Assembly (NCBI RefSeq): GCF_040409795.1
Contig: NZ_CP099571.1
Coordinates: 1,612,001-1,676,000, forward strand
Direction: 5' to 3'
Origin: Polynucleobacter sp. MWH-UH19D
Lineage (GTDB): Bacteria > Pseudomonadota > Gammaproteobacteria > Burkholderiales > Burkholderiaceae
Length of the DNA stretch: 64,000 bases
Below, in pieces: positions 4,251 through 59,861 of this stretch. The notes under the pieces are model-generated. The model was not told the DNA's origin. It did not search any database and saw only the letters and a program-made list of their open reading frames with translations. Numbering within the stretch: position 1 is the stretch's first letter; the number at the start of each line of letters is the position of its first letter. A program made the translations under genes and the position numbers.

Positions 4251-5762
4251 CTAGCTTTTGTGATTTTCTGGATTTTCAGATTTTGGGTTCTTTTTCTGAA
4301 AAACAGCTCCAAAAAACCCATCAGTGCCATGTATATGAGGCCACAACTGCCACCAAGGATGATCTGCCGAGCAGCCTAATGGTAACTTTTCCTTTGGAAA
4401 CAATGGCTTAAGAACTTCCGCTGCTGGAACTACCTCAAACTCGGGGTGATTTTTCAGGAAATCTTCTGCAACCCCTTGATTTTCCCGAGGTAATAGGCTG
4501 CAAGTGGCATAAACCAAACGACCGCCTGGCTTTAAGAGGCGAGCCGCTGAATTCAGAATGCTGATTTGCTTTTGATTGAGCTCCGCAACGCCCTCGGGGG
4601 TTTGGCGCCATTTGAGGTCAGGATTGCGGCGTAAGGTCCCCATACCGCTACAAGGGGCATCAACGAGGACGCGATCAATCTTGCCGGCTAGGCGCTTGAT
4701 CTTGGCATCATTCTCAGAATCAATCCACACGGGGTGGACATTAGAAAGACCGCTGCGAGCTTGTCGAGGTTTCAGGTTAGCCAAGCGACGCTCGGAGGTA
4801 TCAAAGGCATATAAGCGACCTGTTGATCGCATTAATGCGCCAATTGCTAAAGTCTTTCCGCCAGCGCCTGCACAAAAATCAACAATCATCTCACCGCGTT
4901 TTGGGGCCAACAAGTACGCCAGGAGTTGACTGCCTTCATCCTGCACTTCAAACATGCCCGCTTTAAAACCAGCTGTATTTTGCAAGGCAGGTTTACCCAT
5001 AATGCGAACACCATCTGGCGCAAAAGGAGTTGGGCTTGCTTGATAGCGCCCACCTAATGCATTCATCTGTGCAAGCAACTCTTCGCGATTAGTCTTTATC
5101 GTATTCGCACGTAAATCCAAAGAAGCGGGTTGCATTAATGATTTAGCCAACTCTTCGCGTGCTTGCTCACCTGGATATTTTCCGAACGCATCCCACAACC
5201 ACTCTGGCAAATTATTGCGCACCAGAGGATTAAGAGCGCTTGCATCTACTGTTGAAATTCGTTGTAACCACTCATACTCACCAGGCTTTAGAACGTGTGC
5301 CAAGTCTGCAATTGCACTCTCGGCACGATTGCCAGTGCCAAGTCCACCCTCAGATAAGGCGGACAGCAAACCCAATAGGGCTAAGCGTCTAGCCTGCGAA
5401 CCTTCGCCGCTTGAGGCAAATTGGGAGAACTCATTTTTACGACGCAAAATAGCAAACGCGCTCTCTGCAATCAATGCGCGATCACGATTGCCAAGCTTTG
5501 GTTCAGAACGAAAGTAGCGACTAACAATTCGATCGGCTGGTTGATCAAATTGCAGCAACTCCGGAAGCAAGCGCTCCAAATGAATCGCATGCTGAGGCAA
5601 AGCTTTTGCATGTGAAAAGTTTTTTTGCCCCTCTGGCGCAATCAGATTACCGCTTGCATTGCGTCGCTCAGAGCGACGTAATGGATCTTTTGATTTGGCG
5701 GCGTAACTTTTTTGCGAGCCTAAGCGCTTATTCAATTTTGGTTTGGAACGTTCTGCGCTCAT
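4251..5762 (-). CDS. rsmB: RsmB/NOP-type rRNA (cytosine-C5) methyltransferase
   Basis: S-adenosylmethionine-dependent m5C RNA methyltransferase of 503 residues. It has a long basic N-terminal extension of about 60 residues, a helical NusB-like middle part, and a C-terminal Rossmann domain. That domain contains VDFCAGAGGKT (cofactor loop), the catalytic VDAPCSGMGTLRRNP and the second cysteine in YATCSLLP. Both catalytic cysteines are present. The assignment to RsmB (16S C967) rather than another NOP-family member is by general likeness. It overlaps the purN stop by ATGA, which implies translational coupling. Confidence 0.85.
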   Translation of the reverse strand: MSAERSKPKLNKRLGSQKSYAAKSKDPLRRSERRNASGNLIAPEGQKNFSHAKALPQHAIHLERLLPELLQFDQPADRIVSRYFRSEPKLGNRDRALIAESAFAILRRKNEFSQFASSGEGSQARRLALLGLLSALSEGGLGTGNRAESAIADLAHVLKPGEYEWLQRISTVDASALNPLVRNNLPEWLWDAFGKYPGEQAREELAKSLMQPASLDLRANTIKTNREELLAQMNALGGRYQASPTPFAPDGVRIMGKPALQNTAGFKAGMFEVQDEGSQLLAYLLAPKRGEMIVDFCAGAGGKTLAIGALMRSTGRLYAFDTSERRLANLKPRQARSGLSNVHPVWIDSENDAKIKRLAGKIDRVLVDAPCSGMGTLRRNPDLKWRQTPEGVAELNQKQISILNSAARLLKPGGRLVYATCSLLPRENQGVAEDFLKNHPEFEVVPAAEVLKPLFPKEKLPLGCSADHPWWQLWPHIHGTDGFFGAVFQKKNPKSENPENHKS

Positions 5763-6388
5763 AATTTAAAAGATTGCGATTCTGGGGGTTGTAACTTCAC
5801 TTGATTACCTTCAATGCGCAATCGTCCGTCGAGGAACCATTTTACGGCTCGTGGATAAATCTGATGTTCTGCCTTTAAAACTCGAGCGGCGAGTGTGTCG
5901 GCATCATCACCCTCGAGCACCGGCACTGAAGCCTGACAAATGATTGGCCCCTCATCCACGCCCTCAGTTACAAAATGCACAGTGGCCCCATGTTCTTTTA
6001 CCCCGGCTTCAAGCGCCCTCTCGTGAGTGTGTAAACCAGGGAAAGCTGGCAAAAGAGCGGGGTGAATATTTATCAGACGCCCCTCAAAATGGCGAATAAA
6101 GCTAGGGGTCAAAATCCGCATAAAACCTGCCAAGACCACTAAATCAGCCCCCAACTCGTCAATCTTCTGAATGAGAGCAGCATCGAAGGAGTCCCGAGTT
6201 GCATGCTCCTTGTGCTCAATTGCAAATGCCGGAATACCCTGCGAGCGAGCAAAATCAAGGCCCTTAGCCGCAGAGTGATTCGCTATGACCCCCGCAAATT
6301 TGACTGGCCATTGCTCTTTTTGGGCGGTTTTAACGATCGCCTCGAAATTGGATCCGCGGCCTGAGATTAAGGTAACGATAGAAAGCAT
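5759..6388 (-). CDS. purN: Phosphoribosylglycinamide formyltransferase
   Basis: GAR transformylase of purine synthesis; it transfers a formyl group from 10-formyl-THF to GAR. The N-terminus MLSIVTLISGRGSNFEAI holds the GAR-binding loop. The catalytic Asn-His pair is in INIHPALLP, and the catalytic Asp is in VTEGVDEGPII. 209 residues from the ATG at 6388; a GTG two codons upstream is possible but less likely. TATATT lies 6 bases before this ATG, so the mRNA is probably leaderless. The gene is divergent from ribF and overlaps the start of rsmB by 4 bases. Confidence 0.95.
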   Translation of the reverse strand: MLSIVTLISGRGSNFEAIVKTAQKEQWPVKFAGVIANHSAAKGLDFARSQGIPAFAIEHKEHATRDSFDAALIQKIDELGADLVVLAGFMRILTPSFIRHFEGRLINIHPALLPAFPGLHTHERALEAGVKEHGATVHFVTEGVDEGPIICQASVPVLEGDDADTLAARVLKAEHQIYPRAVKWFLDGRLRIEGNQVKLQPPESQSFKL

Positions 6389-6394
6389 GCCCAC

Positions 6395-6402
6395 AATATA
6401 AT
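6395..6402. promoter_or_regulatory. Candidate shared divergent -10 for purN and ribF
   Basis: The 8-base block AATATAAT reads TATAAT on the plus strand (6397-6402, toward ribF) and TATATT on the minus strand (6400-6395, toward purN). On the minus strand the block ends 6 bases before the purN ATG. On the plus strand a start near 6409 leaves a leader with GAAGG before the ribF GTG. The -35 regions are weak on both sides. Confidence 0.55.
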
Positions 6403-6427
6403 TGATGGCTACCCTGAAGGCGATTTT

Positions 6428-7378
6428 GTGAACGTATTCCGTGGCTCGACCCCGTTTTCCGCAGGACCTGCTTGTGCCCTAACCATCGGTAATTTCGATG
6501 GCGTGCACAGGGGTCATCGCGCCCTGCTCAAAGAGTTGGTTGCCGGCGCCCGCGAAAGGGGCCTAGTTAGCTGCGTGCTGACCTTTGAGCCCCACCCAAA
6601 AGAATTTTTCTCACCCGAGCAGGCCCCACCCCGAATTCTGAATCTGCGCGACAAATTGGCTGCACTTGCAAAGCTTGGAATAGACCGAGTAGTTGTAGAG
6701 CACTTCAACTCCGCATTTGCTCGCTTATCTCCCGAAGAATTTGTATCAGAAATTATTGTTAAAAGACTCAATACCAAATGGATCTTGATTGGCGATGACT
6801 TTTGCTACGGAGCCAAACGTGCTGGAAATTTTGCAAGCCTCAAAGCAGCGGGCGAAAAATATGGCTTTGAGGTCTCCAGTATCCAAACCATCTTGGAAGA
6901 TGGTGAACGTATTTCTAGTTCAGCATTGCGCACCGCACTTGCGAATGGCGATATGAAGGAAGCAGAAAAATTATTAGGTCGTCCTTATGGAATTTCTGGT
7001 CATGTCATTCATGGGCAACAACTTGGTCGTCAATTGGGATTCCCCACTTTAAATTTAGCTGTAGCAAATCACCTGCACCATCGCAAGCCAGCCACCACTG
7101 GCATATTCACTGCACAGGTTCTAGGGCTTGGTGATAAACCGCTACCAGGTGTAGCCAGCTTAGGTGTACGGCCTACCGTAGAAGATAAAGGTCGCGTATT
7201 ACTTGAGACGCATATCTTTGATTACCAGCAAGATGTTTACGGAAAAATTATTACCGTTGAACTCTTAGAAAAAATTCGTGACGAGGAGAAGTATGACGAC
7301 CTCGACACACTCACACATGCGATTGCACAAGATGCAAAGCAAGCCAGAAATTATTTCCAGAAAAAATCTTATGTCTGA
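6428..7378 (+). CDS. ribF: Bifunctional riboflavin kinase / FAD synthetase
   Basis: Makes FMN and then FAD from riboflavin. The N-terminal nucleotidyltransferase domain shows [11 protein letters not shown] (about residue 20) and the ISSSALR motif. The C-terminal flavokinase domain starts around residue 185 with [20 protein letters not shown] and contains GFPTLNL and the [11 protein letters not shown] block. 316 residues is normal. The start is GTG, supported by GAAGG 8 bases upstream. It heads the ribF-ileS-lspA-coaBC-dut operon and its last 8 bases overlap the start of ileS. Confidence 0.96.
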
Positions 7379-10232
7379 AAAAGAAAATAACTATCCAGTC
7401 AATTTGCTCGATACCGCATTTCCTATGCGAGGCGATCTAGCCAAACGCGAACCACAATGGGTTGCGCAATGGCAAAAAAATAAGCTCTACGAAAAGATTC
7501 GTGCGGCGCACGCAGGTCAACCGAAATTCATCTTGCATGATGGCCCTCCTTATGCGAATGGCGATATTCATATTGGTCATGCGGTGAATAAGATTCTGAA
7601 AGACATGATTGTGAAATCCCGCTGGTTAATGGGATTTGATTCTGCTTATGTGCCTGGTTGGGATTGTCATGGTATGCCAATCGAGATTCAAATTGAAAAG
7701 CAGTTTGGCAAGAATCTACCTACTGCAGAGGTTCAGGCCAAAGCCCGCGCTTATGCTCAAGTGCAAGTGGATAAGCAAAAGAAGGATTTCGAACGCTTAG
7801 GGGTATTGGGTGATTGGAATAACCCCTATCTCACCATGAACTACCGCAACGAAGCCGATGAAATTCGTGCGCTTGGCAAGATCTGGGAAAAAGGTTACGT
7901 GTTCCGTGGATTAAAACCAGTGAACTGGTGCTTTGATTGCGGCTCTGCACTTGCCGAAGCTGAGGTGGAATACCAAGATAAAACGGATCCAACAGTTGAT
8001 GTAGGTTTCGCATTTGATGATGCGCAGCGTCCGCAACTTGCCAAAGCATTTGGCTTATCCGAACTACCCAATAAGCCCGGTCAGATTGTGATCTGGACAA
8101 CAACACCATGGACTATTCCCGCAAACCAGGCCATGAACGTGCACCCCGAGTTAACTTATGCACTGGTTGATGTAGGTGACAAGTTATTAATTCTTGCAAA
8201 AGATCGTGTTGAAACCTGCTTGCAAGAATATGGTCTCGAAGGCAAAGTAATTGCTACTTGCCTTGGTGAGAAGCTCGCAAACATTTCTTTCTGGCATCCC
8301 CTTGCTTCTTTGCACGAAGGCTATAAACGCCTTTCTCCAATTTATGTGGCCGACTATGTCACGCTTGATACCGGCACAGGTATTGTTCACTCCGCGCCCG
8401 CATATGGCGAAGAGGACTTTAAGTCTTGCAAAGCTAATGGGCTAGTGGATAAAGACATTTTGAACCCTGTCATGGGAAATGGCGTATATGCATCTTGGCT
8501 ACCACTTTTTGCAAATGAATATATCTGGAAAGCAAATCCAAAAATCGTAGAGGCAATGCGTGAAGCGGGTAGCTTATTGCGTGATAAGACTTATACCCAC
8601 TCGTATATGCATTGCTGGCGTCATAAGTCACCGATCATTTATCGTGCAACCTCACAGTGGTTTGCCAGCATGGATAAAAAGCCATCCGATGGTAAATCTA
8701 GTTTGCGTGAAACCGCTTTAGCCGGTATCGACAACACAGACTTCTTCCCAGCTTGGGGCAAACAACGCTTGCACAGCATGATCGCCAATCGCCCAGATTG
8801 GACGCTCTCACGTCAGCGTCAATGGGGTGTACCCATGGCTTTCTTTGTTCATAAAGAAACTGGGGATCCACATCCACGCACTGTCGAGTTACTCGAAGAG
8901 ATTGCAAAGCGAGTAGAAAAAGGTGGTATCGAAGCTTGGCAAAAACTTGAGGTTTCTGAACTACTCGGTGATGAGGCTACCCAATATGAGAAGAATCGCG
9001 ACACATTAGATGTGTGGTTTGATTCAGGCACAACACACTGGCATGTGATTCGTGGATCACATCGCGATGAACTACTCACATCAGAAGCAGAAACCCCTGC
9101 TGGGCGCCTTGCTGATCTCTATCTTGAAGGCTCTGACCAGCATCGTGGTTGGTTCCACTCATCATTACTCACTGGCGCGATGCTCGATGGCAAACCGCCA
9201 TACAAGGCGCTCTTAACCCACGGTTTCACAGTGGATGGTCAGGGTCGCAAAATGAGTAAATCCGTGGGCAACGTCATTGCGCCACAGCAAGTGGCAGACA
9301 AACTCGGCGCAGAAATTATTCGTTTATGGGTTGCTTCCACAGATTACTCGGGTGAAATGACAATCTCCGATGAAATTCTGAAACGCGTTACTGAAAGCTA
9401 TCGCCGTATTCGCAATACTTTGCGCTTCTTACTTGCCAATCTCTCTGATTTTGATCCCGCTAAGCACGCGATGCCTACTGATCAATGGCTAGAAATTGAT
9501 CGCTATGCTGTCGCACTAGCTAACCAATTACAGGGTGATATTGAGGCACATTACAAAGCTTATGAATTCCATCCTGCAGTCGCGCGCATGCTCACCTTTT
9601 GCTCGGAAGATTTGGGTGGTTTTTATTTAGATATTCTGAAAGATCGCCTCTACACTAGTGCACCTGATTCAGCAGACCGTAGAGCCGCGCAAAATGCGCT
9701 GTTCCACATCACTCGCAATCTCTTAAAGTGGCTCTCTCCGTTTCTTTCGTTCACTGCAGAAGAAGCCTGGCAAGATCTCCCCAAAGATCCTAGCAAGAAA
9801 CTATCTGAATCCATCTTCATGGAAGAATTTACCGCTTTTCCTGATATAGCCAACTCAGAAGAGTTGCTTGGTAAATGGAGTCGTATTCGTGAGATTCGCT
9901 CAGAAGTGACTAAAGCGATTGAGGTTGAGCGTGAAGCAGGCAATGTAGGCTCCTCGCTTCAGGCCGAACTCACGATTAAGCTTGGTGACGTTGACTTTGC
10001 CATCTTGCATTCACTAGAAAATGACTTGCGTTTTGTCACCATCACTTCAAGCGCTAACATTCAACTCAGTAATAATGGCCTAGAAGTGCTAGTTCGAGGC
10101 AGTCAATATAAAAAATGTGCTCGGTGCTGGCATCACACAAACGATGTTGGGGACAACCCAGATCACCCTGACCTCTGCGGCCGCTGCATAAGCAATCTTT
10201 TTGGTAGCGGTGATCATCGCCTTTTCGCTTGA
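7371..10232 (+). CDS. ileS: Isoleucyl-tRNA synthetase
   Basis: Class I aminoacyl-tRNA synthetase of 953 residues that charges tRNA-Ile. Visible are the HIGH motif in [13 protein letters not shown], the editing domain ([17 protein letters not shown] region), KMSKS in [12 protein letters not shown], and a C-terminal zinc finger formed by CARCWHH and DLCGRC. The start at 7371 ([20 protein letters not shown]) overlaps ribF by 8 bases; a longer in-frame extension upstream lies in ribF and was dropped. The ileS-lspA order is a classic conserved pair. Confidence 0.98.
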
Positions 10233-57755: not shown

Positions 57756-59825
57756 TTATGCCTTCAGAAATTCTGCGCGAGAGCCCAGCCAACGTTCCAA
57801 GTGTCGCTCCACGATATCGCCATGCTCTGCCAGCAAACGTTCAGCCGCTTTCTGCGCTAACTCAATCAACCATGCATCTCGCTGTAAATCTACAAAACGT
57901 AACATCGCATCTCCTGATTGCTTTGCTCCCAAAAGCTCTCCGGGGCCACGCAAAGATAAATCGCGCTCTGCAATTACAAAGCCATCAGAAGTTTCACGCA
58001 AAGTCTGTAAACGCTCTTTGGCAGTCATTGACAATGGCTCTGCGTACATCAAGATACACACTGAATCTGCCGACCCACGGCCGACCCGCCCCCGCAACTG
58101 ATGAATTTGGGCATAACCAAATCGTTCCGCATGCTCAATCACCATTAATGCTGCATTGGGCACATCAACACCAACTTCAATTACCGTAGTTGCCACCAAT
58201 AACTGAATTTCATTAGCCTTAAATGCTGCCATCACTGCAGCTTTCTCATCCGCTTTCAGGCGCCCATGAACTAGACCCACTCTGAAATCAGGCAAAGCCT
58301 TAGTAAGTTCTTCAAAGCTCTCAACGGCAGTCTGTAGTTGCAATACCTCAGACTCCTCAATCAAAGGGCATACCCAATACGCTTGCAAACCTTTTGAAAG
58401 CCAGCTTTGCAAGCCATGAATCACTTCCTCTCTTCGGCTTGCTTTCACGACCTTAGTGGCAATAGGCTTACGCCCTGGAGGTAGCTCATCAATTACAGAT
58501 ACATCCAAGTCAGCGTAATACGTCATTGCTAAAGTCCGCGGAATTGGCGTTGCCGACATCATGAGTTGGTGGCAATAAAATAATTCTGAGCCAACCCTTT
58601 GTTGGATCTCTAAACGCTGTCGAACACCGAATCGATGCTGCTCATCAATAACCGCCAAACCTAATTTGGCGAAGCGCACATTTTCTTGAATCAAGGCATG
58701 CGTACCAATGATGAGTTGTGCAGCACCATCCTCAATCAACTCTTGGGCCAATTTCTTTTCTTTTGCCTTGAGACTGCCAGATAGCCATGCGATTTGCGCC
58801 CCCAAAGGCTCAAACCATTCTTTCATTTTGAGGTAATGCTGTTCGGCCAATATCTCTGTTGGCGCCATGATTGCTGCCTGATAACCATGATCCATTACCC
58901 GCGCTGCTGCTAATGCTGCGATCACAGTCTTGCCACTACCTACATCACCCTGCAATAAGCGATTCATTGGAAATGATTGCGATAAATCCCCCCCAATTTC
59001 ATCCCACACACGTGACTGAGCCCCAGTTAAATGGAACGGTAGAATTTTTATTAAGGCCTCTTCCAGGCTAGTAGTGGATGCACTATTTTTGTTGAAGCTT
59101 GGCGCATGCCGCTCTCGCCGAATCGCATGGGCACGCTTTAATGAAATCTGTTGAGCTAGCAATTCTTCAAACTGGACACGACGCCATGCAGGATGTGTAC
59201 GCTCTAGCAATGATTGTGTATCTGCAATGGCTGGTGGTTGATGCAGATATGTAATAGCGGATTGCAAACTTGGCCAGTCATTGCTTGGTAATAACTGATT
59301 CATCAATTTGCTTGGCAAAAACTCAGCCAGACTGTCTTTCAAACTTGGATCTCGTAAAGCCTGCGTCACCGCTTTGCGAATTACTGCTTGAGAAACGCCT
59401 GCACTGGCTGGATAGACCGGGGTCAAGCTCGTTGGAAGTGGTGCATCTGGCGTAACGGCACGGACGGTTGGGTGAACCATCTCTGGGCCCTGAAAACCTT
59501 CACGCACATCTCCGCGAACTCGAATATGGGCACCAACAGCCATCTGCTTCTGCTGACTCGGGTAAAAATTTAGGAAACGTAGATTAAGAGTCTCAGTGTC
59601 GTCCTCTATAGTGACAACCATTTGTCTTCTGGGCCTAAATAAGACTTGATTCCGAATCACTACACCCTGAGTCTGAACCGAGCTAAATCGCCCCTGAACA
59701 AGCGCTTGATCAATTGAGAGCAACTCCGTCTCATCCTCATAGCGAGAGGGAAGATGCAAAGCAAGAGCCATTGGGCTGTCTAAACCCATTTTTTGGAGTG
59801 TGTTTGGCGTTTGCTTAGTAGTCAT
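57756..59825 (-). CDS. recG: ATP-dependent DNA helicase RecG
   Basis: Branch-migration helicase for stalled replication forks. 689 residues. An N-terminal wedge/OB-like part ([20 protein letters not shown]) is followed by the SF2 helicase core. Walker A is [20 protein letters not shown], motif II is [13 protein letters not shown], then [15 protein letters not shown] and [13 protein letters not shown]. Transcribed ahead of ubiA and divergent from queA with 30 bases between. TAGATT lies 6 bases before the ATG. Confidence 0.97.
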
Positions 59826-59831
59826 CGTTAA

Positions 59832-59855
59832 AATCTAATACCTGATGGTAACGCT

Positions 59856-59861
<6 letters not shown>
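59832..59861. promoter_or_regulatory. Candidate shared divergent -10 for recG and queA
   Basis: The block AATCTAAT (59832-59839) reads TAGATT on the minus strand (6 bases before the recG ATG) and TCTAAT on the plus strand (start near 59846 for queA). A possible recG -35 (TTGCAT, 59861-59856, 18-base spacer) covers the queA start codon. A possible queA -35 is TTGCTT at 59811-59816 with a 17-base spacer. Confidence 0.5.

Follow-up and report, generated by a model that had tools for sequence, protein, structure and literature searches.

The window analyzed here is a stretch of 64,000 nucleotides from a freshwater Polynucleobacter, whose genome of 1.95 Mb lies in one contig. In this window purN and ribF are transcribed away from each other, each followed in its own direction by a gene that overlaps it (Table 1). 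The short gap between the two genes contains the eight-base block AATATAAT, which reads TATAAT on the plus strand toward ribF and TATATT on the minus strand toward purN. A preliminary description had claimed that these two hexamers are offset by two bases inside one block, and that 39 bases separate the start codons. Both statements hold in the sequence, where the purN ATG starts at 6388 (minus strand) and the ribF GTG at 6428 (plus strand). The ORF list also allows a longer purN ORF from a GTG at 6394; the genus-wide start is the ATG at 6388. The reading frame of ribF is open upstream for up to 335 codons. An upstream in-frame start was ruled out by eye, since the gap has lost single bases in some relatives, which destroys the frame. 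ribF and ileS are expected to be essential and purN only conditionally, and "two essential operons" is loose wording for this pair.

Table 1. Genes, putative promoter elements and predicted transcription starts at the purN/ribF locus (positions in the window).
Feature	Position	Strand	Remarks
Putative shared -10 block AATATAAT	6395..6402		Invariant in 151/151 genus loci, with 117 distinct 160-nt regions
Candidate ribF -10 hexamer TATAAT	6397..6402	+	6/6 to consensus; 151/151 genus loci
Candidate purN -10 hexamer TATATT	6395..6400	-	5/6 to consensus, A at -11 and T at -7 present; 151/151 genus loci
purN transcription start, predicted (A of ATG, leaderless mRNA)	6388..6388	-	Inferred from spacing
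ribF transcription start, predicted (leader of about 19-20 nt)	6408..6409	+	Inferred from spacing
purN, phosphoribosylglycinamide formyltransferase	5759..6388	-	TIGR00639 match above cutoff
ribF, bifunctional riboflavin kinase/FAD synthetase	6428..7378	+	TIGR00083 match above cutoff
rsmB-like rRNA methyltransferase, next in purN direction, overlaps purN	4251..5762	-	Best rsmB models below curated cutoffs
ileS, next in ribF direction, overlaps ribF	7371..10232	+	TIGR00392 match above cutoff

Symmetry alone was dropped as an argument because the counts of the motif and of overlapping pairs are at or below those of shuffled sequences. AATATAAT occurs once in the window, while 2.77 occurrences are expected from shuffles. 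Of 53 divergent gaps, 11 hold overlapping -10-like pairs (7-25 bp), fewer than the average of 18.25 over 100 base-composition shuffles; these gaps, which do not include the purN/ribF pair, were taken with a crude gene caller from a 424-kb sample of the source genome (the window plus L218-L235). What lies beyond chance is the conservation of the block and its fixed distance from purN, not the bare motif.

The gap was aligned across 151 Polynucleobacter loci. These comprise the window, 71 loci from other genomes of the genus (one genome twice), drawn from the 147 genomes, out of 151 in the genus, that gave a ribF match, and 79 of 80 contig loci, most of them labeled Polynucleobacter and the rest beta-proteobacterial metagenome bins; L103 was left out as it ends before the gap. 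AATATAAT is intact in all 151 loci, followed by T in 150 and by G in one, counts that are not independent events because many loci are close relatives and some genomes are present in both sets (117 of the 151 160-base regions are distinct). When the loci are aligned without gaps on the block, its eight columns form the only invariant run among 46 (6375-6420), and a lone extra invariant column is found at 6418. In every locus TATAAT and TATATT share four bases. Within about 120-150 bases on either side, they are the only hexamers with at least 5/6 matches (including T1, A2 and T6) that occur in more than five of the 151 loci, and both are at the block. The block is thus conserved across species as a unit and as the longest invariant run, with no other widely conserved -10 nearby, which supports the earlier proposal that it may serve as a -10 in both directions.

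For comparison, 36 third positions that are four-fold degenerate were followed at conserved residues of 114 ribF genes; none is invariant, and the identity of ribF to the window falls to 60% within the genus set. That the invariance covers exactly the union of the two hexamers, against 0/36 of such sites, supports a shared -10. In addition, the bases A6395 and A6396 are relevant to the purN hexamer alone, as its T at -7 and T at -8, yet they are invariant too, which supports the same interpretation. The single-genome statistics, being at chance level, would agree with ordinary AT-rich intergenic DNA, symmetric by chance and conserved through recent common descent. However, this explanation is already contradicted by eight invariant columns, when no four-fold site is invariant, and by the divergence of ribF, and we give it practically no weight.

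The distance between TATATT and the purN ATG is 6 nt in 108 and 7 nt in 39 of the 147 loci where the ATG was located. These come from 152 loci attempted; L096 and L097 (residue pattern missed, distance of 6 nt in both), L103 (truncated), and L139 and L146 (no ATG) are left out of the count. The gap between the start codons, obtained for 145 loci, is 39 bases in 81, 51 in 23, 27 in 20, 38 in 17, 50 in two, and 61 and 26 in one each. The purN spacing is therefore fixed at 6-7 nt while the gap ranges from 26 to 61 bases. With a spacing of 6 nt, the usual 7-bp rule makes the first base of the purN ATG position +1, and by this measure the purN mRNA should have no leader. Inspection by eye of the window and of the genus gaps viewed showed no Shine-Dalgarno sequence at a proper distance from purN. 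In the 23 loci with a 51-base gap (L048 and 22 others), about 12 bases (GAAAGCGA repeat) are present as a tandem copy between the block and ribF; by eye, the block-side copy seems to vary less than the ribF-side copy.

In leaderless genes a TANNNT precedes the start codon by about 12 bp (PMC3160421), and such genes are also reported for Burkholderia cenocepacia (PMC4603805). The purN -10 would lie at the same distance, although, unlike the usual leaderless -10, it would also be the -10 of a divergent neighbor. Among 106 divergent genes of the source genome, 12 hexamers of at least 5/6 are placed 6 nt before the ATG and no more than four at any other distance, while only two are found at 6 nt among 124 genes that closely follow a same-strand neighbor (crude ATG-only gene calls in the 424-kb sample). 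This peak before the ATGs of divergent genes suggests a leaderless class in Polynucleobacter. A consensus promoter scan, with the sigma-70 criterion of a -35 at 16-18 bp, gave no promoter of at least 9/12 at the block in either direction. The sequence CTGAAAGCGA, between the block and ribF, was considered as a -35 for purN and rejected by eye, as it does not fit at 16-18 bp. In mapped Salmonella promoters the -35 is poorly conserved too (PMC10268837).

Other Burkholderiaceae resemble Polynucleobacter in the gene pair, its orientation and the purN spacing, but differ in the size of the gap, which is 97-301 bases in 24 family loci with both start codons located, and in having two distinct -10-like elements. 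purN and 80 nt upstream of it were readable in 41 of the 57 family and order loci tried, several of which share a genus and are not all independent. A TANNNT hexamer of at least 4/6 is present 6-9 nt before the purN ATG in 35 of these 41 loci, at 6 nt in 24, 7 nt in eight, 8 nt in two and 9 nt in one, and almost none are found at other distances; in the genus, a TANNNT at about this distance is found in 147 of 147 loci. The outgroup hexamer is mostly TAAAAT, with TACAAT, TAGAAT and others also present, and the six loci that lack it are all order-level (L203-L206, L208 and L210). A simple Shine-Dalgarno pattern precedes purN in one of the 41 (L198). No purN was found beside ribF in several of the family loci.

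Of 40 family loci, 29 have a separate TATAAT for ribF, eight are without it and three have no readable motif. The two bases before this TATAAT are TT in 16 loci, TC in six, CT in three, TA and GT in two each, and AA in none. In the 424 kb of the source genome AA stands before 4 of 32 TATAAT, so that the bare motif is not above chance; set against both counts, the invariance of the AA in the genus supports its use by purN. The purN hexamers at leaderless distance and the separate TATAAT of ribF suggest that the rest of the family usually has two -10 elements, one for each gene, whereas Polynucleobacter would have a single element meeting both demands. Outgroup ribF promoters (L152-L180) often share GAGCGTTTATAATC or a near variant of it, which is more than a -10 needs.

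The block could instead be the -10 of ribF only, with the purN promoter inside ribF and AATA kept for another reason, such as local melting or spacer effects. The TATAAT of ribF in most outgroup loci is in line with this, as are two genomes, G099 and G043 (L191 and L192), in which the gap is re-expanded. In both, purN starts with TTG at 107 nt from the block, a different 5/6 hexamer lies 35 nt before this TTG (TAGAAT in G099, TAAAAT in G043), and AATATAAT is nevertheless intact. The two genomes are close relatives, with ribF genes 90% identical. A6395 and A6396 may therefore be kept in these genomes for a reason other than purN, or the change may be too recent for decay; their state may be expected if the promoter split recently, and also if AATA serves ribF or something else. 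However, a scan on the ribF side, over its first 150 bases, found no conserved 5/6 hexamer in the purN direction, and a purN promoter inside ribF was rejected. The missing AA before the outgroup TATAAT, the fixed purN spacing, which is the same as for the separate purN -10 of most outgroups, and the want, as judged by eye in the sequences viewed, of a well-placed Shine-Dalgarno sequence also make a block devoted to ribF unlikely.

Still less probable are two starts on separate weak -10 elements in the gap, below the 5/6 level of the scan. Two such hexamers, each with 4/6, can be read by eye on the reverse strand: AATTAT (6403-6398) and TATTGT (6398-6393). Both overlap the block, and therefore would still form a shared element, in another register. 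Furthermore, two separate cores would not fit into the 26-27 nt that make up the gap in 21 loci.

In our view AATATAAT is very probably one shared, pseudo-palindromic -10 of the sigma-70 type, which would serve ribF in one direction and a leaderless purN in the other, in a mutually exclusive manner, and which would have arisen from the merger of two promoters. RNA polymerase with sigma-70 may bind the block facing either way, but only one way at a time. Toward purN, transcription would begin at the A of the ATG; toward ribF it would leave a short leader, which is predicted to shrink to about 6 nt where the gap is 27 nt. Most likely, two elements that once stood apart, a leaderless purN -10 and the TATAAT of ribF, merged as the gap was reduced from about 100-300 to 26-61 bases. 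The start points, the use in both directions, the mutual exclusion and the merging are all deduced from the sequence of the block, its conservation and spacing, and the two outgroup elements. Against a shared -10 stand the lack of a recognizable -35 in both directions, the persistence of the block in G099 and G043, and the fact that the bare overlap of hexamers is not rarer than chance.

The bidirectional promoter with a shared -10 is itself already known, and was reportedly introduced by a 2021 paper. In the examples of Warman, Grainger and co-workers from E. coli (PMC12825309) and Salmonella (PMC10268837), -10 elements overlap on opposite strands and mRNA is produced both ways, as is predicted for purN/ribF. 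By definition their starts are 7-25 bp apart (PMC10268837), a range that includes the predicted separation of 21 bp, compared with preferred separations of 18, 10 and 23 bp (PMC12825309). The latter source also describes such promoters as having low basal activity and as interfering only if one direction is strongly activated. Unlike the published examples, purN/ribF combines a two-base offset with a common TATA core, one of its mRNAs is predicted to lack a leader, and the element does not vary within the genus, where it would replace the two promoters of relatives.

The main text of a Polynucleobacter transcriptome paper (PMC7522526), in the part that was accessible, makes no mention of transcription start, leaderless or purN. 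Likewise, the arrangement is not described among the matches listed in searches on leaderless and bidirectional promoters, purN/ribF and Polynucleobacter promoters (titles and beginnings of abstracts). The present analysis adds that purN would be leaderless, that relatives hold two -10 elements, and that similar arrangements occur elsewhere in the genome; the preliminary description had none of these three points.

It is an open issue whether bidirectional promoters are selected or are a by-product of -10 symmetry. purN/ribF offers a before-and-after comparison, with relatives that have two -10 elements, a genus with one non-drifting -10 that suits both genes, and two genomes in which the promoters seem separated again. 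The question of selection is therefore testable by single-base changes. The locus also illustrates how tightly divergent genes can be packed, into 26-61 bases here, in small free-living genomes.

Similar arrangements are seen elsewhere in the source genome, a hint of a genome-wide habit. Matches to the pattern CAT-N5..8-AATTATAATT-N5..10-ATG occur in 46 of 61 genus genomes, while its reversed control matches in 1 of 61. In L217:1025-1051 (G000:C1:1593423-1593452), a uvrD-like gene (minus strand) and valS (plus strand) have 24 bases between their ATGs, with the perfect palindrome AATTATAATT; the identity of the two genes was also confirmed in six other loci that were checked. Both start codons are 7-9 nt from a perfect TATAAT, and both genes are predicted to be leaderless. 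Tentatively, and with somewhat more doubt than confidence, we suggest that Polynucleobacter repeatedly collapsed two promoters into one palindromic -10, with start codons as transcription starts and gaps of 11-40 bases reduced to the shared core, so that either-or binding would tie the expression and the noise of the two genes. purN/ribF and uvrD/valS would then be the first two documented cases.

Three further divergent pairs were noted. recG (minus strand) and queA (plus strand), at 59823-59858 (59825/59856), are separated by 30 bases, where two -10-like hexamers overlap, namely TAGATT, 6 nt upstream of the recG ATG, and TAAAAT, which is directed toward queA. The pair in L234:6822-6834 has 11 bases between predicted start codons, and a TATACT 6 nt before the ATG of the plus-strand gene overlaps the start of the other gene. 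In L226:2255-2273 the gap is 17 bases, with TACAAT 8 nt before the ATG of the plus-strand gene.
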